A DNA stretch of 37,315 nucleotides from NCBI GenBank assembly GCA_017962495.1, contig JAGCVH010000029.1, forward strand, positions 1-37,315. The letters are read 5' to 3'. The notes under the pieces are model-generated. The model was not told the DNA's origin and did not search any database. It worked only from the letters and a program-made list of their open reading frames with translations. Position 1 is the stretch's first letter. Each line of letters starts with the position of its first letter. The stretch comes from Bacteroidaceae bacterium (GTDB taxonomy: Bacteria > Bacteroidota > Bacteroidia > Bacteroidales > Bacteroidaceae). The position numbers and the translations under genes were made by a program. This document shows, in pieces, positions 2,285 to 36,963 of the stretch.

Positions 2285-5200
2285 TTACTTTCCAAGTATG
2301 TAGTTTACCAATGCCGTCACATCGGCAATCGTGATATCACCATCCTGGTTCACGTCTGCAGCCAAATGGTCGTACTGCTCCTCTGTGTCCTTGCCCAAAA
2401 TGATGTTTACCAGAGCCGTCACATCGGCAATCGAAATCTCGCCATCGCGATTCACATCACCCAACAGCACAGGCTTCTTCAGTGAAGTCTGGAAGCCGAT
2501 TTCGCAAATGTAACTGCGATAGGTTGCAGCCTCCACCTTATATACTTTCGAGGCGTCAAGGTCCGTTGCCGAAAGGACAAACGTGCCTGATGTAGCGGAA
2601 TTGCTCTCGCTCTTCACTGCAGTTGACGAAGCTATAGGCGCCCCATCGCCATTAATCGTACATTCGAATACTTTTAATGTCGCAGGATAATTGCTATTGG
2701 TTCTACTCTGTCCCAATCCCAATAGCTTCACAGCCGTTGTATTGCTTACATAGAAAGATACCGTTTCCTGAGTGTAGTTGTTCCTTGAGTTGTACCCCAT
2801 TGCACGGGCACCCGCACTTGTAAAATAAGGAGAACTACCCAAAAGTTCATTATTGCCGTTCCAAGTTGTGCCTGCGTATTTGTTACTTGTGTTATTCACA
2901 TTACTCTCTATCCACTTCTGCGGATGCTCGTTGTAATAAGTTCCTACCCAAGCACCGTAAATAGGCAAAGTCAACCAAGCCACTTCATCCTCTTCATACT
3001 CAGTGTATTTGTATAAAGAGTTGACATAAGTCTCATTCCATCCCGCCTCGTCTATCGTCGCATACTTAGCTATGTTCAGGTACGGGTCACTGGCTGTTCC
3101 TCCGTCATAAGCCGAAGCCGATAACTGGATAGTCACTGGCTCTGCGCCTTCACTCGCAAGCGTCAGAGCACCAACATAAGTACCTTCCTGCGAGGCATTG
3201 AAGGTTATGGTCACCTCTGCCCCAGCTGCTATATCTTCGGCAGAAAGTGTTGCAGGATTAACACCAAACACCCCATTAGCATCAGCAAGAGTCAGATTCA
3301 CATCAGCATTAATGAAACGTCCTGTAACAACTACGTTCTGACTCAGTTCCGTATCGACATTGGCATTGAAGGTCAATGTTTGTTTATCGACAAGAATGGT
3401 TGGAGTTGCAGGTTCGGCTATACCTGAAAGGGTAAGAACAATATTCTCTGCGCCCTCACTACTAAGCGTGATGCTACCCGTGTAACTGCCTTCCTCCAAA
3501 GGATGGAAAGTCACCACGACCTCTGCCCCACTCATGGCTTCATTAGCAGGAATCGCGGTCTTATCCACACTGAAGACTCCGTTCTCATCATTAACGGTGA
3601 CGTCGACTTCGCCTTCAAGATACTTGGCACTTACAGTAAAGGTCTGTGCTCCCTCCGTCGTTGCATAGATAGCATCAAAGGCTATCTCTGTAGGTTCAGC
3701 CATAATGGTGGGCACCTTCACAACCTCGATCGGTGTCTGGAAGCCAATCTCGTATAGATATCCACGATATATGCTTGCTTCCACCTTGTATATCTTTGAT
3801 TCATCGAGGTCGGTGGCAGAAAGAGTGAATGTTGATGTTGAAGTACTTGTGAGATTCTTTGTTGCACTTGTCGAAGCATTTACAGAACCGTCAGCACCCA
3901 TCGTACACTCATACACCTTCAAGGCTGCAGGATAGTCACTGTTGACCCCGCTTCGTCCTGTACCATAAAGCCTTACTTCCGACACATTCGTTACATAGAA
4001 GGCAACATTACGTATTACCGTGTTTGATTGAGAGTTATTACTCAATGCACGGGCAGTGGCTGAAGTGAAGTATGTTGAACTACCTGCAAAGACACCTGAT
4101 GCATTCCACGATGTACCTGCATACGTGTTCTGGTTGTCCAGACTTGTCTCGATCCAAGTTTGTGGATGTCCGCTATTGATGGTTGAACTTGATGGAGAAT
4201 ACTTAGCACCAACAAACGCACCATATAAAGGCAAGGTCAACCAAGCAACCTCGTTATCCTCATCTTCATTATACCTATATATATTATTAACCAAGGCTTT
4301 TCTCCACCCCGCCTCATCTATCGTTGCATACTTGGCAATATTCAGGTATGCATCACTTGCAGTCCCACCATCACGTGCAGTAGCCGTTAGGTTGATGGTA
4401 ACACTTGCAGCTCCAGCACTTGCCAACAACAGAGAACCTTCGAAGATTCCTTCCTCTGCCGAGTTGAATGTTATGCTAACAGAAACGCCTTCTTCCGTTG
4501 CCTCAAATGAGCTCTTGTCCACAGAGAATACACCATTGGGGTCTGTCAATGTGGCTGCAACGTTACCTGTAAGGAAACGTCCACCTACGTTTATTGTCTG
4601 GGAAACCTCTTTGTCGAGCATTGCCGTAAACTCAAGGCTTTCCTTATCGGTAACGATGGTTGGAGTGGCGGCCTCAGCCGTTCCTGTCAAAGAGATAGTT
4701 ACATCCTCTGCGTTATTGCTCGACAACGTAATTGTTCCCGTCTGCGTACCAGCACTCGTGGGTGCATAGGTAACAGTAATCTCAGCAGAAGCCACGCCAT
4801 TGGATTGAGTGATTCGAGTCTTGTCAACACTGAACACATTGCTTCCACTCTTAGAGACAGTAATATTGCCTTCCAGATTTATGCCTGTAACAGATATTGT
4901 TTCAGTATAGGTTCTCGTGGCATAGCCCTCAAATGCGAATTCCGTCTTGTCTGTTTTTATCGTGGGAGAGGAACTTGCACCCAGAATATATTTAATACCT
5001 GCCAAAGCATCTATCTTACCTTGTCCAAAGTGCGAGGCATTCGCCCCTCTGGTGTACGAATCCTTGATAGCGGTTTCCCGCATCACTTCTTTGATGTCGT
5101 TCACCGTCATGTTCTTGCCAACCTCCTTTGCCGCCTGCAACCAAAGGGCCACAATGCCGGCTACAGTTGGCGTTGCCATCGAGGTTCCCTCCATACTACC

Positions 5201-7135
5201 ATACGGGTTAGTGGTATTTGAGTTGACTCGGTACATGCCATATTCGGCAGAGTTGCCATTAATATAACTAAATTCGCCAGACGTGTCATAGTGATTTACT
5301 GCAGATACAATAGTTGCACCTGGTCCTGTAATCCATGGGTATTGCACTCCCGTAGGGCTCTCTGAAGCCGTCGCATAACTCGAGAAATAAGCAATATCAC
5401 CGATGGTTGGGAAATCAGCCGACATACTGTGCGAGGTTCCATTATAGTCAGTCACACTATTTTTCGTGACATACGCACCTACAGAGATAACGTTGGCAAT
5501 GGTTGTCTCATCGCTGACACTCATATCGTCGGAACCCGCCTTCCAATTATATCCGCTGGTTGTCAAATGATTGGTGAAATAGCCATACGTGCCTCCCCAA
5601 ACGTCTACGACAGAGCTACCGCTGATGGGATAGACCTGAATGGCAAGCGTGTATTTACTCTTATAATACGTTTCACCATTCTTTGTGGTAGTCGTCACTC
5701 CTTGCGATGTAATACCATTAGAAGAATAAAGCAGAACCTGAGTCTTATTTGAAGTTACTTGGTCATAATAGACATAAAGCGTACCCGAGTAATACGTACT
5801 TAATCCGCTAACACTTCCAGCGGATGTCACTGTCACACTTTTTTTGACTTCGCCTGTACTAGCATCCAGCACATGAATCTTTATACCCAATTTGCTTACA
5901 CTCGTAGAGCGTGCCCATGCATTAGCTATGATTCCTTGGTAAAAGTATCCAGCATCCGTATTTATATAGGTAGCAGAGCGAAGTATTGTGTTCAAAGGGC
6001 TGCTACTGCTTGCAGTGCCACTTACATGATAGCCTCCACCTTCTCCATCCTTTGACTTTCCACCATCATTCGAAGAAGCAAAAAGTGCAATGTGATTAGG
6101 ATGACTATCACCAAATAGTGAGTTATAGACATCGGCCACATCGCCTGTGCCGTCATGCGGACCAAACTGACCGCCCCAACTATTGCTGACAACAACAGGC
6201 ATATTGTTATTATCAGCATATTGAACGATTTTTGATACAGCATTGGAAAGATAGGTGTCAGCCAATCCATTTACTCCAGCCAAATAAAGGTCTGCACCTG
6301 GTGCCATACCACCATAAGTAGCATTGGCATGATTATCAGTAACAGTCACACTTGAACCATTTACGATAACACTCGAACCGCCAGCAGTGCTGGAGGTGTG
6401 TGTACCATGGTCCTCCTCCGTGTCATCAGTTGTTGGACTGCTACTGCTAAAAGTGTCGTACTCTGTAGCGCTTCTTCCATTGTAGACATAAGCGCGTTTA
6501 ATACGATAATTGCCATCCTTATCTTTAAAAGCTATATGTTGGAAATCAATGCCAGTATCAATCACACCTAACAATACGCCTGTTCCATCATACTTCTTTG
6601 TCAGTCCTTCGGCAATAGCATCAGTAGAAAGCGTTAAAATGTCATCCGTATTCGTCTTCTGGCGTGCTACATTGGTCATCAGTTTCTTTAATGGCGACAC
6701 ATTGATTCGCTTTACCTTGCTAATGCCAGCAATCTCATCAATCTTATCAACAGGAATCAAGGAGGTGTAGAGTCCATTACTAAACTTCTCTTGAATAATA
6801 ACCCCCTGCGCCTCGACCTCGCTCACACCAGCAGCATCGGCCAAACGCAGGTAAGCGGCAATATATGCCTTCCCGTCAATGGTGTCAGGCAAAGCATAAA
6901 GACGATTTGCATGTCTGTTTTTACACTGCCATGTCACATCAACAGGAATTAACCCAAGTTTTTTCTCGGCTTGGGTTTCTCGCTCAAACGAAATCTCACC
7001 ATTCAACTCTTTAAGGAACATCTGTGTCGTCACCGACAGTTTCTCCTCATTTTGTGCAAACAAATGCAACGGCTGCCCTACGAATAGAGCAAGCATCATC
7101 AAAAACGCACTTTTCAGTGCAAATCTTCTTCTCAT
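2285..7135 (-). CDS. Secreted subtilisin-family (S8) protease with dockerin-like C-terminus
   Basis: This 1616-residue protein starts with a signal peptide (about residues 1-27, ending LFAQ). Subtilase active-site residues are all visible: Asp193 in VIDTGID, His243 in EDHGTHTSS, oxyanion Asn318 in SNSWGG and Ser652 in EGTSMATP. A large insert (about 360-540) separates Asn from Ser, as in C5a-peptidase-like subtilases. Ig-like strand-rich repeats follow, each with an FSVDK-type motif, and an about 205-residue module beginning NIAKYATIDEAGW appears twice. The C-terminus has two D-x-N-x-D-G dockerin-like repeats (about 1555-1616). It acts outside the cell as an endopeptidase; its substrate is unknown. 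It has its own promoter (7259-7289) and terminator, so it is monocistronic. I see no typical T9SS sorting domain, so the route of surface attachment is uncertain. Confidence 0.9.
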   Translation of the reverse strand: MRRRFALKSAFLMMLALFVGQPLHLFAQNEEKLSVTTQMFLKELNGEISFERETQAEKKLGLIPVDVTWQCKNRHANRLYALPDTIDGKAYIAAYLRLADAAGVSEVEAQGVIIQEKFSNGLYTSLIPVDKIDEIAGISKVKRINVSPLKKLMTNVARQKTNTDDILTLSTDAIAEGLTKKYDGTGVLLGVIDTGIDFQHIAFKDKDGNYRIKRAYVYNGRSATEYDTFSSSSPTTDDTEEDHGTHTSSTAGGSSVIVNGSSVTVTDNHANATYGGMAPGADLYLAGVNGLADTYLSNAVSKIVQYADNNNMPVVVSNSWGGQFGPHDGTGDVADVYNSLFGDSHPNHIALFASSNDGGKSKDGEGGGYHVSGTASSSSPLNTILRSATYINTDAGYFYQGIIANAWARSTSVSKLGIKIHVLDASTGEVKKSVTVTSAGSVSGLSTYYSGTLYVYYDQVTSNKTQVLLYSSNGITSQGVTTTTKNGETYYKSKYTLAIQVYPISGSSVVDVWGGTYGYFTNHLTTSGYNWKAGSDDMSVSDETTIANVISVGAYVTKNSVTDYNGTSHSMSADFPTIGDIAYFSSYATASESPTGVQYPWITGPGATIVSAVNHYDTSGEFSYINGNSAEYGMYRVNSNTTNPYGSMEGTSMATPTVAGIVALWLQAAKEVGKNMTVNDIKEVMRETAIKDSYTRGANASHFGQGKIDALAGIKYILGASSSPTIKTDKTEFAFEGYATRTYTETISVTGINLEGNITVSKSGSNVFSVDKTRITQSNGVASAEITVTYAPTSAGTQTGTITLSSNNAEDVTISLTGTAEAATPTIVTDKESLEFTAMLDKEVSQTINVGGRFLTGNVAATLTDPNGVFSVDKSSFEATEEGVSVSITFNSAEEGIFEGSLLLASAGAASVTINLTATARDGGTASDAYLNIAKYATIDEAGWRKALVNNIYRYNEDEDNEVAWLTLPLYGAFVGAKYSPSSSTINSGHPQTWIETSLDNQNTYAGTSWNASGVFAGSSTYFTSATARALSNNSQSNTVIRNVAFYVTNVSEVRLYGTGRSGVNSDYPAALKVYECTMGADGSVNASTSATKNLTSTSTSTFTLSATDLDESKIYKVEASIYRGYLYEIGFQTPIEVVKVPTIMAEPTEIAFDAIYATTEGAQTFTVSAKYLEGEVDVTVNDENGVFSVDKTAIPANEAMSGAEVVVTFHPLEEGSYTGSITLSSEGAENIVLTLSGIAEPATPTILVDKQTLTFNANVDTELSQNVVVTGRFINADVNLTLADANGVFGVNPATLSAEDIAAGAEVTITFNASQEGTYVGALTLASEGAEPVTIQLSASAYDGGTASDPYLNIAKYATIDEAGWNETYVNSLYKYTEYEEDEVAWLTLPIYGAWVGTYYNEHPQKWIESNVNNTSNKYAGTTWNGNNELLGSSPYFTSAGARAMGYNSRNNYTQETVSFYVSNTTAVKLLGLGQSRTNSNYPATLKVFECTINGDGAPIASSTAVKSESNSATSGTFVLSATDLDASKVYKVEAATYRSYICEIGFQTSLKKPVLLGDVNRDGEISIADVTALVNIILGKDTEEQYDHLAADVNQDGDITIADVTALVNYILGK
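2484..3079 (-). repeat. Internal module copy B of the subtilase
   Basis: Second copy of an about 200-residue module within the subtilase, from NIAKYATIDEAGW to EIGFQTS. It shares VAWLTLP-YGA-VG, YPATLKVFEC and LSATDLDASKVYKVEA with copy A, at 3732-4343. The two copies lie about 1.26 kb apart, each after an Ig-like pair, indicating duplication of a larger block. Confidence 0.8.
3732..4343 (-). repeat. Internal module copy A of the subtilase
   Basis: First copy of the NIAKYATIDEAGW...EIGFQTP module. It differs from copy B mainly by short insertions (for example SPSSSTINSGHPQ versus NEHPQ). Function is not recognised; position after Ig-like repeats suggests a binding or spacer module. Confidence 0.8.
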
Positions 7136-25680: not shown

Positions 25681-26736
25681 TTACCTCCTCTGACGCCTTG
25701 CACTAACGGTAGGAGCAGAAGAAGCGCGACTGCCCTTCTCTTTCTTCTCGGTAGCAGCAGAAGAACGGCGGTTGGTGGAACCCTGACTTACAGCCTTTTC
25801 CTTCGTCGTAGAGGTTGGACGACGCTTCGTTGACTTGGCCTTAGGCTGTTCAACTGCCACGCTGTCAAGGCTGTCGGCAAGCTCACGCTGGTGCCAGATG
25901 TTCTCCTCGAACTCGACAAGCTGGCGCTCGATCTTCTCCTGTTCCTTCTTCACCTTTACAGTGTCGGGCTCGTTAGCCAGCACCTTGCCTTGCATGTTGG
26001 CGGTCTTGTATATCTTGCCGTCATAGCGGTTCATGGTGAAGTAGTCGTCGGCTGTCATATTGGTGACATTGTTGAGGTTCGATGACATGATAGGCAAACG
26101 GCTCAGGTAGGGAGCAATGTCGTCGTACTTCATCCAGAAGAGAGGCTTGGTGGGTTCGCCTTCCTCAATCAGGATAGGACAAAGGGCGGTAACCTTGGCA
26201 TGATAAGTACCTGTGCGCTGGTCGAAGAAACTACTCTCCTTAATATAGTAACGTGTAATGTTGGCAGAGGGAATATCTGTGTCGGCAACAGTGTACTTAC
26301 CGTTGTCTTCCTCATAGTAAATATAACAGCGATCCAACACTTCCTTTACATCGGTTATTTTGTCCTTTTCGGCAAACGACTCACTTCCATCCAGATTGTA
26401 TTTATAGGCAGTCACGCGCTTGCTCAGGAACAGGCGGAACAAATAGGTGAAAAGGTTCACCTGACGATCAGTAGGTTCCACCGGATAGTAGAGCGGGGCG
26501 TTCTTATCGGCCATCAGGTCGAGCTGACGATAGATATCACGACGCCATACTACATCCTCAGGCATCTCGGCTTCAGTGGGAAACATGAGCGAAGCACGAT
26601 CGTTCTGCTGAGTAGTCGATTTTCCTTGCTGGGCAGCAGCATTGCTCGAGGTAACTCTGCTGCGCGCTGGCTGAGCAAACGACTGCGTCGAAATAAAAAA
26701 TGATATACTAAAAATTAAAAATGCAATGCGCTTCAT
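25681..26736 (-). CDS. gldN: T9SS periplasmic ring protein PorN/GldN
   Basis: A 351-residue protein with a signal peptide (about 1-22, ending SFAQ). The conserved GldN core runs from about 50 to 290 and includes VVWRRDIYRQLDLMADKNAPLYYPVEP and the YYIKESSFFDQRTGTYHAKVTALCPI region. With GldK it forms the periplasmic ring that couples the motor to the outer membrane. The C-terminal 58 residues (294-351) are low-complexity and basic, with 17 Lys/Arg and many Ser/Thr, ending RRQRR; I do not know whether this tail is typical. The gene sits fifth in porP-K-L-M-N. The 56-base gap to gldM carries CTTTTAT-type heptamers. Confidence 0.94.
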   Translation of the reverse strand: MKRIAFLIFSISFFISTQSFAQPARSRVTSSNAAAQQGKSTTQQNDRASLMFPTEAEMPEDVVWRRDIYRQLDLMADKNAPLYYPVEPTDRQVNLFTYLFRLFLSKRVTAYKYNLDGSESFAEKDKITDVKEVLDRCYIYYEEDNGKYTVADTDIPSANITRYYIKESSFFDQRTGTYHAKVTALCPILIEEGEPTKPLFWMKYDDIAPYLSRLPIMSSNLNNVTNMTADDYFTMNRYDGKIYKTANMQGKVLANEPDTVKVKKEQEKIERQLVEFEENIWHQRELADSLDSVAVEQPKAKSTKRRPTSTTKEKAVSQGSTNRRSSAATEKKEKGSRASSAPTVSARRQRR

Positions 26737-26738
26737 AA

Positions 26739-26777
26739 CTTTTATCTTTTATCTCATTTTTGTCTTTTATCTTATTC
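26739..26777. repeat. Imperfect CTTTTAT heptamer repeat between gldM and gldN
   Basis: CTTTTAT occurs at 26739 and 26746, then a variant CTCATTT at 26753, again CTTTTAT at 26764 and CTTATTC at 26771. It is less regular than the other arrays but of the same kind, and forms the leader of gldN. Confidence 0.5.
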
Positions 26778-26792
26778 TCTAATTCTCAAGGA

Positions 26793-28346
26793 TCAGTTCA
26801 CAATGACTTCCATCACACTGTTCAACGTACGTTCGATACCATCAGGACCCACAGCACGGACACGAGTGATGTAGAAACGCTTGCCACGACTCAACTGGCG
26901 GAGCATATTCTTCTGTCGGTCTGTGAATGCTGACGATTGGGCAATCTCAGGAACGGCATTACCCATATTGTCGTAGAAGACCATTTCGAAGCCCTTCACA
27001 GAGAATGGGATGTTCAGCAAACCGTCGTCGATGGCAGCACCCAAGTTGGTCATATTCATGAGATTTTGCTTCGAAATCTTGCCACCCAACAGATGGTCAT
27101 CGCCAATGGGGATGTATGCCGTCGGGTCGGGCAACTTACGAACACGGAAAGTGAACTTACCCATTTCCTGCACGCGTCCTTCCGTCTGTGCGGCAACGGT
27201 AACTACAGCCTCGCCTCCCACATTCGTCGGACGAGCAATATACTTGCCATCGCCCTTCTGTGTAAACGAACCACCCGACATGCTCACTTGCAGACGACTG
27301 CTGGGAATACCAGGTACACTGACGCTCATGGGATTATCGTAACCCGCATAGAGCACATTCATGATGTCGGCACTAACAGTGGCCGAAGGAGGAATTACGG
27401 TGTACTTCTGCTGGAAGTCGCGGCGAACCTTTTCACCACTACCATTTAAGGTCTCAATCCAACCTGTCAGTGTGAAGTCGCCAGTGGAGTTGCAAATGGT
27501 CTCATAGACACCATGATCGCTCTTGATTTCACGACCGCCGACAAAGATGGTAGGACGATTGGTAGTGTCCACTGCTGCCATGAAGATCTGTGCCGAGAAG
27601 CGACCACCCTGAACGATGGTCTGGGCATTGGGAACAACGTAGGCATTGACCTCGTTGACACGAATATCCTTCACGTCGATGTTGCTTACCAGTCCATGCA
27701 AGACTTCGCCTTCAGCATGGCGGACATCGTTTTGCAACTTTGTGAGAAGGGTAACAGCGGCAGATGTGGGCATGCTCTCGAACATGTATTCCTGCCAGTT
27801 TTTGCCTTCAGCTTTACCCTTGGCGGGAACCTCGGTATTCAGGTTACTCTCGATGATTTTGCGCTGTCCTTGGTCGGTCACCATCTTGGTAATGCGTTCG
27901 CGATAACTGTTGACGGCATCGTAGAGTTCCTTGCCACGACCCTTGTTGGGTGCGAGCATGACATTGGAAGAAGCCTCCAAGTCTTCCTGATTGCGAATAT
28001 TATGGACATCGCCGTCCTTGCCGTCGCTCTTCTTCACGATGGCAATCTTCAGTTCCTCGGCCAGATTATAGAGCGAGTCACTCATTTGTCGAACATACTG
28101 GGCTTTATCGTACCACTGCTTTACCTTCGTGGGATTAGCCTTCATCTGTTCGGCAAAATTCTTATAGATGCCCTCGTTGGTCTGAATGGCGTTTTGCGTT
28201 GCCAGTTCAATACCGTCGGAGACGATTGTGAAACCTTTCAATACGTCACTGCTGACGTTGAGGGCCAACATGGCCATCAGCACAACGTACATCAGATTGA
28301 TCATCTTCTGACGAGGGGTTATCTTTTTCTTTTTTATCTGAGCCAT
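26793..28346 (-). CDS. gldM: T9SS motor/stator protein PorM/GldM
   Basis: A 517-residue inner-membrane protein. A short cytoplasmic N-terminus rich in Lys (MAQIKKKKITPRQKMINL) is followed by one transmembrane helix (about 16-33, YVVLMAMLALNVSS) and a long periplasmic part made of one helical and several Ig-like domains (D1-D4 in known structures). NVSSDVLKGF directly after the helix is a strong GldM signature. It dimerises and, with GldL, forms the rotary proton-driven motor of the T9SS; its periplasmic end contacts the GldKN ring. Genes before (gldL, 45 bases) and after (gldN, 56 bases) confirm the context. Confidence 0.97.
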   Translation of the reverse strand: MAQIKKKKITPRQKMINLMYVVLMAMLALNVSSDVLKGFTIVSDGIELATQNAIQTNEGIYKNFAEQMKANPTKVKQWYDKAQYVRQMSDSLYNLAEELKIAIVKKSDGKDGDVHNIRNQEDLEASSNVMLAPNKGRGKELYDAVNSYRERITKMVTDQGQRKIIESNLNTEVPAKGKAEGKNWQEYMFESMPTSAAVTLLTKLQNDVRHAEGEVLHGLVSNIDVKDIRVNEVNAYVVPNAQTIVQGGRFSAQIFMAAVDTTNRPTIFVGGREIKSDHGVYETICNSTGDFTLTGWIETLNGSGEKVRRDFQQKYTVIPPSATVSADIMNVLYAGYDNPMSVSVPGIPSSRLQVSMSGGSFTQKGDGKYIARPTNVGGEAVVTVAAQTEGRVQEMGKFTFRVRKLPDPTAYIPIGDDHLLGGKISKQNLMNMTNLGAAIDDGLLNIPFSVKGFEMVFYDNMGNAVPEIAQSSAFTDRQKNMLRQLSRGKRFYITRVRAVGPDGIERTLNSVMEVIVN

Positions 28347-28391
28347 CTTTTTTCTAATGGACTATAATAATGGGCAATAGATATGTCGTAA

Positions 28392-29372
28392 TTACTTTTC
28401 TTCTTCCTGCTGTTGAGGAGTGATGGGACCTACCACGTTGACTGTGAGAGCCTTGATCATGCGGGCATAGACATTGTTCAGTTCCTCTATTTGCTGTGCC
28501 ATACGACGCGTCTGCTCATCGATTTGCTCGATGGTGCTAACTTGCTTGCTGATGTTGCGCAACTGCAATTCGTAGACAGTGGCAATGCCCGTAAGTGTGC
28601 GGTTGAGGTTCTCCATCTCCTCGCTATCGGTAGACATGCGTTCGGCTTGCTTCTTCACGCGACCCAGCACTTCTGTGAGTTCGGTCAGTTGCTCGGCATA
28701 GTTCTTCACGGCTTCCTCTACGGTTGCAGGATCGGTAGCCTGAATCTGTGCGGCTTCAGTAATGCCTGCACCGCCACCAACGACGCCACCGCCAATGACT
28801 CCGCCACCACCAAGGATGACTGGAGCACCGCCTCCGCCAACAACGACGGGCGAACCCTCGCCGACTTCGGCACCCTCGGCAGGAGCGCCACCGCCACCAA
28901 TGACTATAGTTCCGCCTGCGGGAGCACCACCGCCACCAATGACAACTGTGCCTCCTCCGCCACCAACGACAGGAGCTCCGCCTTCACCGACAACAGCCGC
29001 ACCGCCACCGCCGACAACGGCAGGACCGCCGCCACCGAGGATGACACCGCCACCACCGCCATTCTGTGCAGCAGCAGAAGCAACAGCAGCCAATTCCTCG
29101 ACCGTCTCGCTCGAGAGAGAAGCACCAGTGCCTGAAATCTCAGGAACCTTCTCCGTCACACGCTCGAAACCTGCAACGATGAACACAAACACCTCAGTTC
29201 CCATACCGATGAACAGCATCAGGTTGGCGCCTGGAAGGTGGGTCAGTTTAAACAATGTACCCAAGATAACGACGGCAGCACCCCATGAATAGGCATAGTT
29301 CATGAAGGTTTGGCCAGCCATTGTATCCATCCATTTCTGGATGATTTCTATCAGATTGAGTTTCTTTGCCAT
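28392..29372 (-). CDS. gldL: T9SS motor protein PorL/GldL with glycine-rich insert
   Basis: A 326-residue inner-membrane protein. Two transmembrane helices are seen at about 23-43 and 50-70. The second carries the conserved membrane glutamate (Glu60 in IGMGTEVFVF) known to be needed for proton-driven function. The C-terminal part (about 205-326) is a cytoplasmic helical region with coiled-coil tendency (VKKQAERMSTDSEEMENLNRTLTGIA). Between them, residues 105-203 form a Gly/Val/Ala-rich repeat of the kind GGGGAPVV; see the repeat entry. Five GldL subunits surround the GldM helices in known structures. Confidence in identity is high from the helices and gene order. Confidence 0.95.
   Translation of the reverse strand: MAKKLNLIEIIQKWMDTMAGQTFMNYAYSWGAAVVILGTLFKLTHLPGANLMLFIGMGTEVFVFIVAGFERVTEKVPEISGTGASLSSETVEELAAVASAAAQNGGGGGVILGGGGPAVVGGGGAAVVGEGGAPVVGGGGGTVVIGGGGAPAGGTIVIGGGGAPAEGAEVGEGSPVVVGGGGAPVILGGGGVIGGGVVGGGAGITEAAQIQATDPATVEEAVKNYAEQLTELTEVLGRVKKQAERMSTDSEEMENLNRTLTGIATVYELQLRNISKQVSTIEQIDEQTRRMAQQIEELNNVYARMIKALTVNVVGPITPQQQEEEK
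28764..29060 (-). repeat. Glycine-rich octapeptide repeat inside GldL
   Basis: About eleven degenerate units with consensus GGGG(A/P)(P/A)VV, mostly eight residues long with a few longer ones, coded by near-24-bp units rich in CCACCGCC on the plus strand. The segment has no lysine, arginine or aromatic residue. It is located between the membrane helices and the cytoplasmic helices of GldL. Confidence 0.9.
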
Positions 29373-29390
29373 GATATTGTGTATTCTTTT

Positions 29391-30875
29391 TTATTTCTTG
29401 GTCTTAGACTTAGTTGTAGCCTTCGATGGCTTGGGCTGTTTAGAGTTGTCAGTCACCATAGAACGAACGCAACGGAAACCGATGTACGAACGCGGTTGGT
29501 TCTGATACTCATAGGTACGCCAAGCCGAACGAATCATGCTTTCGGGGTCTTTCCACGAACCACCGCGCACGCTCTTCTTCTTCAGGCGATAGGGGTCTTC
29601 CTTCGCGGCATTGTACTTCAGTTCGGGGTTCATGTCGCTCATGCTCTCCACACCAGCCTCGGTGTAAACCGTACTTGTCCATTCGGCAACATTTCCAGCC
29701 ATGTCATAAAGGCCGTTGGAGTTGGAGCTGAAAGCGCCACACTTGGAAGTAATCAGACTTCCGTCCTCCGTGTAATTGCCTCGATCGGGCTTGAAGTTGG
29801 CATAGAAGCAATTCTTGTCGCTCTTGACATCGCCACTCTCCCAGGGGAAGGGATTGCCTTCCTTGCCACGTGCTGCATACTCCCATTCGATTTCAGAAGG
29901 CAGACGATAGCGTTGGATGTACTTAGCCTGACCGCCGATTCCCTTCAGCAGGAAGTTGGTGCGCCACATGCAGAAGGCATTAGCCTGTTCCCAAGTCACA
30001 CCCACAACGGGGTATTCGTCATAGGCTGGGTTGTTGAAATAGAGTTTCATATAACGCTCGTTGTCGGCGTTCTGGAAGTCGTTGACCCAGCAAGTGGTGT
30101 CTGGGAAGATGTTCACAATGTAAGTGTTGAGGAAGTCCCAAGGACCGGTCAACGGACGAGTAATCGTCTGACGAACAATCTTGCCGTCGTCGTCGATCCA
30201 CGCCGTATCCTTACTGATCATAACAGCCTGATTACGGATGGCATCGTGTGAAGCATCGGTGTTCAGGTCGCGTTCTTCAGGATTGAGGCGATACTTACGC
30301 TGGGCGGCAGCGGCATAGTCATAGATTTCATAACGGTAGTTCATCTGACTGGCATCCAGCATCTTAGTGCCGTCGATGGGATGAAAGACGTACACGCTCT
30401 CAATGGCACGCTGCTCGTCTTCGTTTGCCTTCTTCCAGGGGATAGCCTTGTTCCAGTTGAGGTAGGGAGTGATGGGGTTGCCATCTTTGTCCTCCTCGAT
30501 CTTGTAGGTCTCGTCGCCACCATAGGCAGGATCGGCCAGACGCTCACGAATAATGCTATCGCGAACCCAGTTGACAAACTGGCGATACTTGGCATTGGAA
30601 ACTTCAGTTTCGTCCATCCAGAAACCATCGACTGAAATGTCGCGCTTGGGGAACTCGGAGCCCCACAAAGTGTCGCTTTCTTCCATTCCAATCAGGAGTG
30701 AACCTTTGCGCACAGGAACCATGCCGAAGGGAGTAGGCTCAGAGAAAGCGCTACCTTTCACGCCCGTAACTTCGCCACCCATTGCGTTGGCCGAAGAACT
30801 GGAACCCATGCAGGCCGTCATAGCCCAACTCAGGGCCACAACTGCCAACAACATCAATATCGTTTTCTGCTTCAT
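29391..30875 (-). CDS. gldK: T9SS outer-membrane ring lipoprotein PorK/GldK
   Basis: A 494-residue lipoprotein with a lipobox at Cys22 (SWAMTAC). Most of the protein is a formylglycine-generating-enzyme-like fold: GSLLIGMEESDTLW, WMDETEVSNAKYRQFV, VVGVTWEQANAFCMW, RLPSEIEWEYAARG, NGLYDMAGNVAEWTS and the late VRGGSW and GFRCVR motifs are all present. The family uses this fold as a structural scaffold, not as a sulfatase activator. GldK pairs with GldN in the periplasmic ring below the outer membrane. It follows porP after 9 bases and precedes gldL by 18. Length and motif order are typical for Bacteroidota GldK. Confidence 0.96.
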   Translation of the reverse strand: MKQKTILMLLAVVALSWAMTACMGSSSSANAMGGEVTGVKGSAFSEPTPFGMVPVRKGSLLIGMEESDTLWGSEFPKRDISVDGFWMDETEVSNAKYRQFVNWVRDSIIRERLADPAYGGDETYKIEEDKDGNPITPYLNWNKAIPWKKANEDEQRAIESVYVFHPIDGTKMLDASQMNYRYEIYDYAAAAQRKYRLNPEERDLNTDASHDAIRNQAVMISKDTAWIDDDGKIVRQTITRPLTGPWDFLNTYIVNIFPDTTCWVNDFQNADNERYMKLYFNNPAYDEYPVVGVTWEQANAFCMWRTNFLLKGIGGQAKYIQRYRLPSEIEWEYAARGKEGNPFPWESGDVKSDKNCFYANFKPDRGNYTEDGSLITSKCGAFSSNSNGLYDMAGNVAEWTSTVYTEAGVESMSDMNPELKYNAAKEDPYRLKKKSVRGGSWKDPESMIRSAWRTYEYQNQPRSYIGFRCVRSMVTDNSKQPKPSKATTKSKTKK

Positions 30876-30884
30876 ATTTCTATT

Positions 30885-31826
30885 TTATAATAATCTCACA
30901 CTTTTATGTAGGTTCTTACCTTTCTTAAAGAGGTTCAGGTCGGTTTGGTATCCCAGCACCAGTTCGTGCGTTCCGTTCAAGGCACCGATGCCTTGCGTGT
31001 ACAATTCATAGGAGTAGCCTATGTTGATGCCGTGGAACGTGGTTCCCACCAAGACTGCGACGCTTATCGTCGGGCTGTAGGAGACACCTCCGTAGAGATG
31101 TATTTTCTCGCCATCGTAGGCCAGACGCGCAGTCACGTCGCCTCGCCATGCCTGCAAGTCGGTACGCAGGATTGCTGATGTGTAGAGGGCGTACTCAGGT
31201 TTCTTAAAACGGATGTTATATCCGCCTGTCAGATAATAGAGCCGACTCACTTGCACCTGATGCGTCTTGTCGTCGCCCAACTTGATGGCTGGTCCTGTCA
31301 GATGCATCGAACTTGCGCCCACATACCACACTTTCTTGTAAGTGTATCGCAGGCCTGCGTCCACGTCGACGCCTGTTCCGTTCACCTCGCTGCTGGCGAA
31401 TGCGGGGTCTCCGCTGTCGTTTACGTCGAGTTTCGACCCGTCGAATGTTTCGTTCAAGAATCCCACTCTCGCCCCGATGCTCAGCCTTCCGCCCCAAAGG
31501 GGTTGGTGATAGGCGTACTGGATGTACAACTTTTTGTTGGAGAAGAGACCTATCTTGTCATTCATGAATCCCACGCCAGCGCCATGTCGGGGACTCAGGA
31601 AGAAGAGTGGCAGGTCGGCAGTAGCAAGCATAGTTGATGGGGCACCTTCGAATCCCGCCATCTGCATGCTGTAGGCTCCTTGCACGTTGAGCTGTCCGTC
31701 CAATCCGCTTGTAGCGGGGTTGAAATAGGATTGCAGCGCCCAATAATTGGTGAACGCCGCATCGTACTGAGCATAGGCTCGCGCAGCCATCAGCACGCTC
31801 ACAACTAGCCACAACAGTCTTTTCAT
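30885..31826 (-). CDS. porP: T9SS outer-membrane protein PorP/SprF
   Basis: A 313-residue protein with a signal peptide (about 1-19, ending AYAQ), starting the mature part YDAAFTNYWALQSYFNPATSG, the signature of the PorP/SprF family (Q-[YF]-...-[YF]-NPA-x-AG). About 14 amphipathic strands are visible to the C-terminus. The family links the GldKN ring or its cargo to the outer membrane. It is the first gene of porP-gldK-gldL-gldM-gldN, the order known from Porphyromonas gingivalis. No consensus promoter could be found upstream, so the operon start is undetermined. Confidence 0.94.
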   Translation of the reverse strand: MKRLLWLVVSVLMAARAYAQYDAAFTNYWALQSYFNPATSGLDGQLNVQGAYSMQMAGFEGAPSTMLATADLPLFFLSPRHGAGVGFMNDKIGLFSNKKLYIQYAYHQPLWGGRLSIGARVGFLNETFDGSKLDVNDSGDPAFASSEVNGTGVDVDAGLRYTYKKVWYVGASSMHLTGPAIKLGDDKTHQVQVSRLYYLTGGYNIRFKKPEYALYTSAILRTDLQAWRGDVTARLAYDGEKIHLYGGVSYSPTISVAVLVGTTFHGINIGYSYELYTQGIGALNGTHELVLGYQTDLNLFKKGKNLHKSVRLL

Positions 31827-33957: not shown

Positions 33958-36900
33958 TTACTCCGTCGGCTTGCCAAGAATCTTATTCACTAACGTGGTC
34001 ACATCGGCAATGGAGACTGTGCCGTCGCGGTTCACGTCGAAGCGATCATAGGCTTCATCTGTGGTGATTACCCAGGTAGTGCCCGTGAGGTCATCGCTGG
34101 AGACGGTGAAGCACAGGAAGTCGCCTTCGAGCGTCCCTTCAGAGGTGACATTGACACCGTCGCGGAGCACTTTCAGGGGGATAGTGCCGGTGGCATCCTT
34201 TAGTTCGATGCTCACGGTTCCGCCTACGATCACAATCCTGTGCTGGATGTCCATAACCTCTGACAGTAAGACATTTGTCTTTAGCAATTGAGGTTTATTA
34301 GCCGTTGCATCCACTAAATCCTTACTTTCTTTTAGCCCCAACCCTGTAATTTCTTTAACAGCATATATAACTGCTATTTTGTTTGTTCCATATCCAGTCA
34401 GATAGACGTCGAAGTTGGAGCCGACCTTTGTCAGGACGCGCAGTTTGGCTGAGGAGGCGGAAGTAATGGAGACGGAGGTGGCTAACGAGTTACAAGTGAG
34501 AGTGTCAGACTTTGCGCCGCGTGTGACGATGAGTTCTGCACCAATTGTGTTCTCGTTTCTCACCGCAGTCCACTGCATCTGGTTGCTTTGCTGTCCCACC
34601 AACCATATGGCGTCGGTAACTTGCATTTCTGGCACGATGAGCGAATAGGTGTTGCCTGAGAGCGTGAGCTCGGAGATGCGATCCTGACCGTCGCAGGAAA
34701 TCTGCGGAGTGGCGCCATTCACCTGAGGGAGGTCGAAGCGCACCGACTGCATGCCGGTGGCATTGATGTGGATATCGTTCACGCCAGAGTTCAGAGCATA
34801 CTGTTCTTCCTCTTCCTCATAGACGATGGTGAGCTTGGTCTCTTCCGGTAGGTCCTGCCCCACTACCGTCCAGTCGTAGCCAGTGACGACGTCCGCGTCC
34901 TTCTCGAAGAAGATGGTCCATCCGGATGCGTAGAAATAGGATTCATCGAAGAACTCGTAGTGGTAGGCGTCACCGTAGTATTCGAACTGACTGGTGACAT
35001 CCTCCCCGTCGCGGTAGGCGGTGAATTTCTCACCCTTTGCCAAGTTGATGGTCACGAAATGGTCATAATCGCTCTCGTCGTCCATGATGACGGTGGCTGC
35101 GCAATCGCCCGATAGTTCAGTGGAAGTCTCCCCGCTAAACCATACTTTGCTCTGGGTCGAGCCCTTGCAGACGATGCTCTGCTTGTAGCCGTCCTCGACG
35201 ATGGTTTCAGTCGGTCCCATGTCCACCAGGATGTTGTAGTCCTCCATGCCGAAATCATCGCCACCTCCCTGTTCCATATCGACGGTGAACGTGTAGGTGT
35301 TTGTTGTGGTGTCGTATGAAGTCCAGCTCAGGTAGTCGCCCCAGTAGATTCTTTCCGACCCCTCGTCATCCGCTGGCATGATATAACCCACGAGTAGGTT
35401 TCTCAGTTTCTGTCCCTTCAGTGGGGTCACCTCCAGCCTATAGCCCCATCCTTCATCCTCAGGCAGAGGAATGGCAATGCTGGTGATGGGGTTGACGCAG
35501 TTGATGGTCTGCTCGTAGCGGTACTCGTTTTCCCGATGGTCCCACTCCCAGAACTTGGTGAGTTTCACCTCTCCTTCGCCCATTCGCATCAGTGTGATCA
35601 CGGGGTCGGGAATGCTTTCTCCTTCTCCTTGTGGGATAACATAGGCATAGCTGAAACGCGCTGAACTGATTGACGGGACAGAGAATACGATTTCATAGTT
35701 CCCGTCCACAGGTGTGGGGAGTGTGATGTTCTGCGTAGTCCCTGTGTTATAGAGCGTCAGCTTCAGGTCGTTGTTCAATAGGTAGGGAGTTGCAGGCATG
35801 GTCAGCTTTACCTCAGATCCGTAGTCGCAATCGATGAACCCGTTGAAGATGTTTCCATAGTGACGCGTCCCATCGCGCCTAATTTCGTAGGTACCGGCAA
35901 TGTAGCCTTCGCCCCCGTTGAAAGTCACTCGGCATTGTTTGTGATTCGCATTCACTTTGTACGAAACATGCTCGTGCAGATCGCTTTCCTGATAGCCCAC
36001 CACACCTTCTTCCACCTCAAACAAGTCGTTTTCGTCGATGGGTTCGTCATTTCGTGTCAAGGTAGGCACGTCCTCTGTCTCAGGGTCGTACTCGCATGTC
36101 AAAAGGTAGTTCTCCCCAAGATTGCCAACCATACTCTTGTAGCCGTATTCCTTCCCAGTCACCGAGGGGGATGGAAGGGGGGTAGCGGAGCTATAATCCT
36201 TATTGCCAAGCGAATAGAGTTTCACGATGCGTTTACTATAGTTCCAAAACGCCAATGAATAATTCCAGGAGAAAGGCACGATAGCCTTGAAATCACTCCA
36301 CACAGCGGCATATTGCATACTCTCCTTGATATATTGGGGCTGTATGTGCATGGTGATCTGACTGGCATGAATGAACATACCCCCCGAGAGAGTGGGGCAA
36401 CCATCTGTGACATACACATCTGTAAGTGCGGGGAAATCGAATTTCCAGTCGTCTACAGTACCTGTCTGTCTGAATTTCGGCAGGCTAAGTGTCTTGAGCT
36501 TTGGCAGATTAAGATTGCTGAAATTCACGCCTCTGTCTTCGCCTGTCAAATCGTACAACCATATCGTAGTACCCCAAAAATTTTTATAAAATCTTTCAAT
36601 ATCAGCTCCGACTTCCGCGGAGAACGTGAGGCTTGTGATAATGTTATTCACATAACCATAGAAAGTTGCCGAGATGCCTTCTACAATATATTCTTGACCA
36701 CCGTTCGAAACATTCTTTGGTATCACACACTCTGCCGTGGTGACATTCTTCAGGGAAGTGATACGGGCAAAATGTCCTATGGTTTCTATACCGCCCGACG
36801 CATTAGGGGCGGTGGCCTTATAACCTTGGTATTCCACACCGTTTACATAGAACTTACCGCCTTCCGTCGTGTAGGTGACAATGGCAGCCGCGATGTTCTG

Positions 36901-36963
36901 AATGCCGATAAACATCAGCAAAAGCAGCAGGAATATACTCTTAAAGTTTTTCGTCGTTTCCAT
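33958..36963 (-). CDS. Large secreted protein with bL12-C-terminal-domain-like segment and dockerin-like repeat
   Basis: A 1001-residue protein with a signal peptide (about 1-27). The N-terminal third has leucine-rich, BspA-like features ([33 protein letters not shown]). The middle (about 300-840) is beta-rich and acidic, without a recognised family. Residues 851-920 look like a complete C-terminal domain of ribosomal protein bL12: [32 protein letters not shown] and closing [10 protein letters not shown] single D-x-N-x-D-G dockerin-like repeat (about 975-997) ends the protein. It probably acts at the cell surface or outside; the substrate is unknown. A -7 box lies at 37055-37062. The bL12-like part is coded by DNA of clearly lower GC than its flanks. 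Confidence 0.85.
34204..34413 (-). other. Ribosomal bL12 C-terminal-domain-like segment within the secreted protein
   Basis: Seventy codons (residues 851-920) reproduce the whole bL12 C-terminal domain pattern: FDV-x-L, G-x-NKIAVI, the helix [18 protein letters not shown], a proline-containing turn, a second helix and the last strand GGTVSIEL. In true bL12 the TGLGLKEAKDLV helix binds translation factors. Over 34261-34400 I count 49 G/C in 140 bases (35%), against 33/60 in 34441-34500 and 35/60 in 34141-34200. The frame is continuous with both sides. Confidence 0.8.

Follow-up and report, generated by a model that had tools for sequence, protein, structure and literature searches.

Why would the domain with which the ribosomal stalk recruits translation factors sit in a protein that looks built for export? 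The question is raised by a 37,315-nt stretch of DNA from a Bacteroidaceae bacterium (assembly GCA_017962495.1, contig JAGCVH010000029.1), analyzed at its full length and referred to here as the “window.” A first-pass annotation, made from the sequence alone, had placed a C-terminal domain (CTD) of ribosomal protein bL12 (L7/L12) in a large multidomain protein encoded near the end of the window (Table 1).

Table 1. Features of the gene that carries the bL12 CTD; positions are those of the window.
Feature	Residues	Position	Strand	Basis or remark
Multidomain protein, putatively exported, that contains the bL12 CTD	1-1001 (1001 aa)	33958..36963	-	ORF list; two other genomes of the genus have orthologues
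Putative signal peptide	1-26	36886..36963	-	Hydrophobic stretch
bL12 (L7/L12) CTD	851-920	34204..34413	-	
Low-GC core	856-895	34279..34398	-	GC 0.35, GC3 0.225; codon-use test
Upstream segment with predicted beta strand, before the bL12 domain	836-850	34414..34458	-	Predicted-structure model
Downstream beta segment with RDGVNVTS motif	928-967	34063..34182	-	Resembles repeat unit of the host protein family
Dockerin-like tail	975-996	33976..34041	-	Dockerin_1 below cut-off

By sequence and predicted fold, the domain is a genuine bL12 CTD, as the first-pass annotation had proposed. The Pfam profile PF00542 matches it from end to end (profile positions 1–67 of 67) with 57.5 bits against a cut-off of 25.9 (E 1.7e-15), and the predicted structure has the CTD fold, lying 1.0–1.1 Å from bL12 CTDs. 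Sequence identity is 34–46% to the bL12 chains among the matches listed, with 43% to E. coli 1ctf. The genome also has its own rplL, a separate and ordinary gene on contig C101, whose product is 38% identical to the window domain. The protein as a whole differs from ribosomal bL12. It scores 55.5 with the bL12 equivalog profile TIGR00855, short of the cut-off of 84.4, in an alignment that begins at profile position 38; the N-terminal dimerization and uL10-binding domain is absent, and the stretch preceding the CTD is modeled as beta-rich. The start of the protein resembles a signal peptide, and one of four conserved lysines (65, 70, 81, and 84) is lost: position 70 is tyrosine, with 65, 81, and 84 kept.

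The signal peptide and dockerin-like end reported at first pass fared differently. The N-terminus, with a mean hydropathy of 3.3 over 12 residues, is signal-peptide-like, and we infer from such sequence features that the host protein is probably exported. The tail scores 17 bits with Dockerin_1 for a cut-off of 22.9, over profile positions 2–23 of 57, and thus lacks both the Pfam score and the two repeats of a type I dockerin; 25 similar places elsewhere in the genome match the tail alone (E up to 0.01). The sole cohesin candidate in the genome, located in a 2,697-aa frame (G000:C30:52882-53358, L151), is marginal at 21.2 bits, or 24.2 with its neighbors, for a cut-off of 24.1, and may pair with the numerous dockerin-like tails. 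Elsewhere in the window, a 1,616-aa subtilase (S8) with Ig-like domains (2285–7135, − strand) does end in a full Dockerin_1 (46.7 bits). A type IX secretion cluster, porP-porK/gldK-gldL-gldM-gldN (25681–31826, − strand), lies ~2 kb from the host gene. Using tblastn, we found none of the window esterase, PorP, and GldK in the sequenced flanks covered of the two orthologues described below; with PorP and GldK missing there, the link to type IX secretion was set aside as evidence.

The host gene occurs in 3 of 139 genomes of the genus, many of which are incomplete. Besides the window’s genome, full-length orthologues are present in G008 (82% identity) and G103 (48%), and both keep a PF00542-type domain (58.6 and 62.9 bits, respectively), although that of G103 is only 40% identical to the window domain. 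Because both orthologues have it, the domain predates the split of these species, and so does any insertion. A paralogue in the window’s own genome, on contig C66, carries a divergent stretch resembling L12 at the corresponding place. This stretch scores 15.6 bits with a mixed bL12 profile (E 7.5e-4, set size 1000) and just 6.1 bits with an rplL-only profile, and Pfam makes no call there. No bL12 match was found in the part covered of a relative from G029. In the N-terminal part of the host protein (residues 30–250), the window and G008 are 59% identical; this part contains a second low-GC stretch (0.37–0.42; window 36484–36738, residues 76–160).

A fall in GC content over the domain had been noted at first pass, and it is real: beyond the low GC of the core (0.35), GC3 over the domain is 0.408 where 0.653 is expected (z −4.4 in the codon-use test). 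The same test gives 0.394 (z −5.1) for G008, 0.420 (z −2.9) for G103, and 0.439 (z −2.7) for the C66 paralogue. In a comparison across exported-type copies of the domain, strongly low GC3 (z −3.0 to −4.8) is seen in the three window-family orthologues alone; in other exported families, single copies show mild dips (L096, z −2.5; L112, z −2.3) or the opposite (L113, z +2.6). Low GC3 is a mark of the window protein family and not of the bL12 domain as such. Since the orthologues share it and other copies show it inconsistently, the dip is no proof of recent insertion. For want of consistently low GC3 in the other exported-type copies, the reading of the dip as a codon-level trace of insertion was set aside.

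Two readings would make the domain an accident of this one gene. An assembly or gene-call artefact might be suspected, since the draft genome is in 104 contigs, of which the window is one, and the first-pass annotation itself had allowed that the low-GC stretch could be an assembly error. This is barely credible: the frame is open, without a stop, and the same domain and architecture recur in two other assemblies, whose orthologues contradict the reading. A recent horizontal insertion of a low-GC piece of rplL into the window gene alone is unlikely. Besides the GC3 deviation, such an event is favored by the low dS of the domain between the window and G008 (0.061, vs 0.078 and 0.228 in the adjacent segments) and by a loop, TANKP in the window and TANGP in G008, that resembles VANGP, a three-residue loop insertion in the rplL of genome G163 (L048), 1 of 72 rplL compared. 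However, a tree that groups the domain with the G163 rplL is worse by 16 log units, albeit not rejected (p-AU 0.18), the C66 paralogue has its L12-like stretch at the matching place, and G008 and G103 have the same domain with the same low GC3, in G103 at the much lower identity given above. Given these orthologues, the proposal that the low GC reflects insertion from elsewhere is not supported.

Insertion of the domain within one beta repeat unit of the host is weakly supported. Against a profile built from units without an insert, the downstream half of the flanking sequence gives E 5.8e-6 (set size 1000), and the two flanks joined without the domain give E 1.5e-5. In a control in which the upstream part was shuffled, the number of shuffles, out of 50, that did at least as well was 23 for the window, 41 for C66, and 0 for G103. 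The support is weak because this control puts the signal in the downstream half; only in G103 does the upstream half have a sequence signal of its own. The model of the window protein has strands both before and after the bL12 domain, the former at model residues 143–149, which correspond to the upstream segment.

As a check, the first-pass annotation had proposed looking for other signal-peptide proteins with the domain. The domain does occur in further exported-type families, some with tandem copies, a recurrence that the first pass had not seen. A profile built from the three orthologues had two or more matches in 23 of 399 genomes of the family. We searched 21 of these (all except the window’s and G103), together with G008 and G394, with PF00542, and 18 of these 23 genomes have matches in frames of at least 471 aa. 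Across the family, such frames are present in at least 19 of 399 genomes, a count that includes the window’s and G103, excludes G008, and draws on genomes with more than one profile match.

The largest of these proteins are giants of genus g20, with frames of 4,670–4,974 aa and one 1,129-aa fragment at a contig end. Nine of the 10, the fragment included, have three to five bL12 copies; that of G202 has one match. The copies lie at the C-terminal end in all nine giants read, with spacers of 3–17 residues in eight. The start was read in the giant of G374, and export of the other eight would follow from kinship with it. The G374 giant (L105:273-14282, +), of 4,670 aa, has a signal-peptide-like start, leucine-rich repeats (LRRs), and five bL12 CTDs. 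Its copies add up to pass the TIGR00855 cut-off (214.4 vs 84.4), and it may therefore end up annotated by pipelines as “50S ribosomal protein L7/L12.” Smaller proteins include five of 471–499 aa in genus g6, where Cleaved_Adhesin was found in the one tested by Pfam and the related choice-of-anchor J in two tested by NCBIfam. Others are 632- and 886-aa frames with paired copies in G284, a 747-aa protein with Cthe_2159 matches in G272, a 783-aa protein with a dockerin in G381, and a 532-aa frame in G260. Eight of 10 further bL12-bearing frames measured have a signal-peptide-like start, the other two being a TIR and a caspase protein, and the six exported-type proteins scanned for partner domains have Cleaved_Adhesin, fn3, LRR_4, Cthe_2159, or Dockerin_1.

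Within the genomes sampled, exported-type copies were seen in the window’s family only. At the level of the order, 10 of 247 genomes besides the window’s have more than one PF00542 match. A second search, of these 10 and one odd case, placed the extra matches, all but a second rplL-sized gene in G554, in frames of 186–591 aa in which no leading signal peptide was seen; for L140 and L141, the position of the domain was the sole basis of this judgment. At the level of the class, where the orthologue profile covered 149 genomes with E up to 0.001, a single match in a frame >200 aa came from outside the window’s genome: an 859-aa frame (L154, genome G809) in which a bL12 CTD lies close to the C-terminus and no signal peptide is visible.

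How do the exported-type copies differ from the ribosomal domain? We aligned 72 rplL CTDs, 43 exported-type domains (from 22 proteins), and 11 other extra-ribosomal domains (from 7 proteins). The alignment was scored at the basic positions 65, 70, 73, 81, and 84 (E. coli numbering) and at nine core positions picked after the residue table had been seen. The counts leave out L144 and L145 (helix hairpins, partial), L146 (EF-Ts), partial hits from the genome’s own C78, the C66 insert, L106 (the same gene as L094), and the proteins of G454 and G402. The core is kept, with means of 8.74 of 9 positions in exported-type copies, 8.99 in rplL, and 7.82 in the other extra-ribosomal copies. The basic face is eroded: on average, 2.88 of 5 positions are basic in exported-type copies, where 28 of the 43 domains come from nine giants of one family and are not independent, vs 4.99 in rplL and 4.36 in the others. 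Position by position, in the order given above, K or R is present in 33, 27, 33, 10, and 21 of the 43 exported-type domains, in 72, 72, 72, 72, and 71 of the 72 rplL domains, and in 11, 10, 11, 7, and 9 of the 11 others. In 4 of the 43 exported-type domains, every one of the five positions is basic, and position 81 is basic in 1 of 28 copies from the giants. The window domain keeps K65, G79, L80, K81, E82, and K84. The tyrosine at 70 is shared with G008; in G103, positions 65, 81, and 84 are I, V, and Q, respectively.

These residues bear on a further suggestion of the first-pass annotation, that the domain mimics a ribosomal protein: an extracellular bL12 CTD might bind EF-Tu or EF-G that other cells display or release. 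EF-Tu occurs on cell surfaces, and the window copy retains K65, L80, K81, E82, and K84. According to the available text of one study (PMC10602876), the native CTD binds EF-Tu and EF-G, K65, K70, K81, and K84 are highly conserved, and changes of K65 or K70 to Q, or even to R, lower EF-Tu binding. The mimic reading is weakened by the tyrosine in place of K70 and by the eroded basic face of exported-type copies, with the replacements in G103 and the near-absence of a basic residue at 81 in the giants pointing the same way, and we consider it distinctly unlikely. The residues instead suggest that the window domain no longer binds translation factors.

The reading that we favor as probable is that, in this Bacteroidales family, the bL12 CTD serves exported proteins as a module that can be reused, with a spacer or partner-binding role; the reused stable fold listed among the first-pass roles thus appears the likeliest. 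Behind it stand the sequence membership, the predicted fold, the two orthologues, the recurrence, and a core kept while the basic face eroded. The domain would sit between beta segments as a compact alpha/beta unit of a surface or secreted protein with a signal peptide and a dockerin-like end. There, outside the cytoplasm, it would act as a spacer or partner-binding module within a protein resembling an adhesin, and with the core kept its surface could diverge freely. A core translation domain is clearly reused here in proteins of export type, recurrently enough for study: the predicted fold is intact, the surface is changed, and single and tandem copies both occur.

A selfish or neutral mobile domain, spreading among large proteins with no selected role, could also explain the recurrence. 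The host gene is found in three genomes of a genus sample with many incomplete ones, the window neighbors were not found in the flanks covered of the orthologues, and phage proteins with embedded bL12 domains have homologues that lack them, as the available text of PMC6375957 describes. One species pair also shows an excess of amino acid changes. When the window is compared with G008, 14 nonsynonymous and 3 synonymous changes fall in the domain and 65 and 69, respectively, in the rest of residues 440–1001 (Fisher p 0.0096), a difference that may reflect relaxed constraint; between the window and G103, the ratio for the domain is ordinary (0.34), with no such excess. The conservation of the core over 43 domains, the retention of the domain in three species, and the three to five copies in 9 of 10 giants, one a contig-end fragment, speak against this reading, and we think it improbable. 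More speculative still than the mimic or the mobile domain is that the exported bL12 CTDs of Bacteroidales, including the tandem copies, up to five of them, in the giant LRR proteins, form an extracellular capture module. If so, the factor-recruiting domain of the ribosomal stalk would seize EF-Tu, EF-G, or other proteins that are exposed on neighboring cells or set free by lysis.

Trees on 69 columns are compatible with one or several origins of the exported-type copies. One sets the rplL rows, together with Thermotoga maritima, apart from the exported-type rows (97/87), and another places one TIR-protein copy among the rplL. The free tree splits the three window-family rows, and topology tests reject neither a single exported-type clade (p-AU 0.56) nor a single window-family clade (p-AU 0.47).

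The bL12 family, embedded bL12 domains in phages, and cytoplasmic ClpS-L7/L12 reuse are already known. The phage proteins resemble those described here in that the domain lies within much larger polypeptides, but they are said to keep the factor-contact residues (PMC6375957, available text), whereas ours are bacterial, of exported type, and eroded on the basic face. Likewise, the available text of PMC12419801 describes extra-ribosomal reuse in the form of a “ClpS-ribosomal L7/L12 domain,” which there belongs to the cytoplasmic part of single-TM proteins, unlike the exported-type copies here. The window domain is 7–14% identical to ClpS rows. Among the literature matches listed, from a scope short of most subscription journals and of InterPro architectures, none describes exported bL12 CTDs, tandem copies, or an eroded basic face, and we do not claim that exported use is absent from print.

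Of 77 candidate stretches in a scan of viral sequences, one was confirmed: a 212-aa frame on an IMG/VR phage contig (L152:2650-3285, +) with a C-terminal bL12 CTD, matched over the bL12 part only. Non-exported, cytosolic-type copies in our set, which mostly keep the basic face (4.36 of 5), include two unusual architectures. A 360-aa protein of G461 (L104:1438-2517, −) joins TIR, bL12 CTD, and SEC-C, with a weak ThsB-type TIR match in PADLOC. A 584-aa protein of G628 (L155:4528-6282, +) combines EF-Tu domain 2, a caspase, and a bL12 CTD (24.6 bits for a cut-off of 25.9), and is possibly a translation-linked protease.
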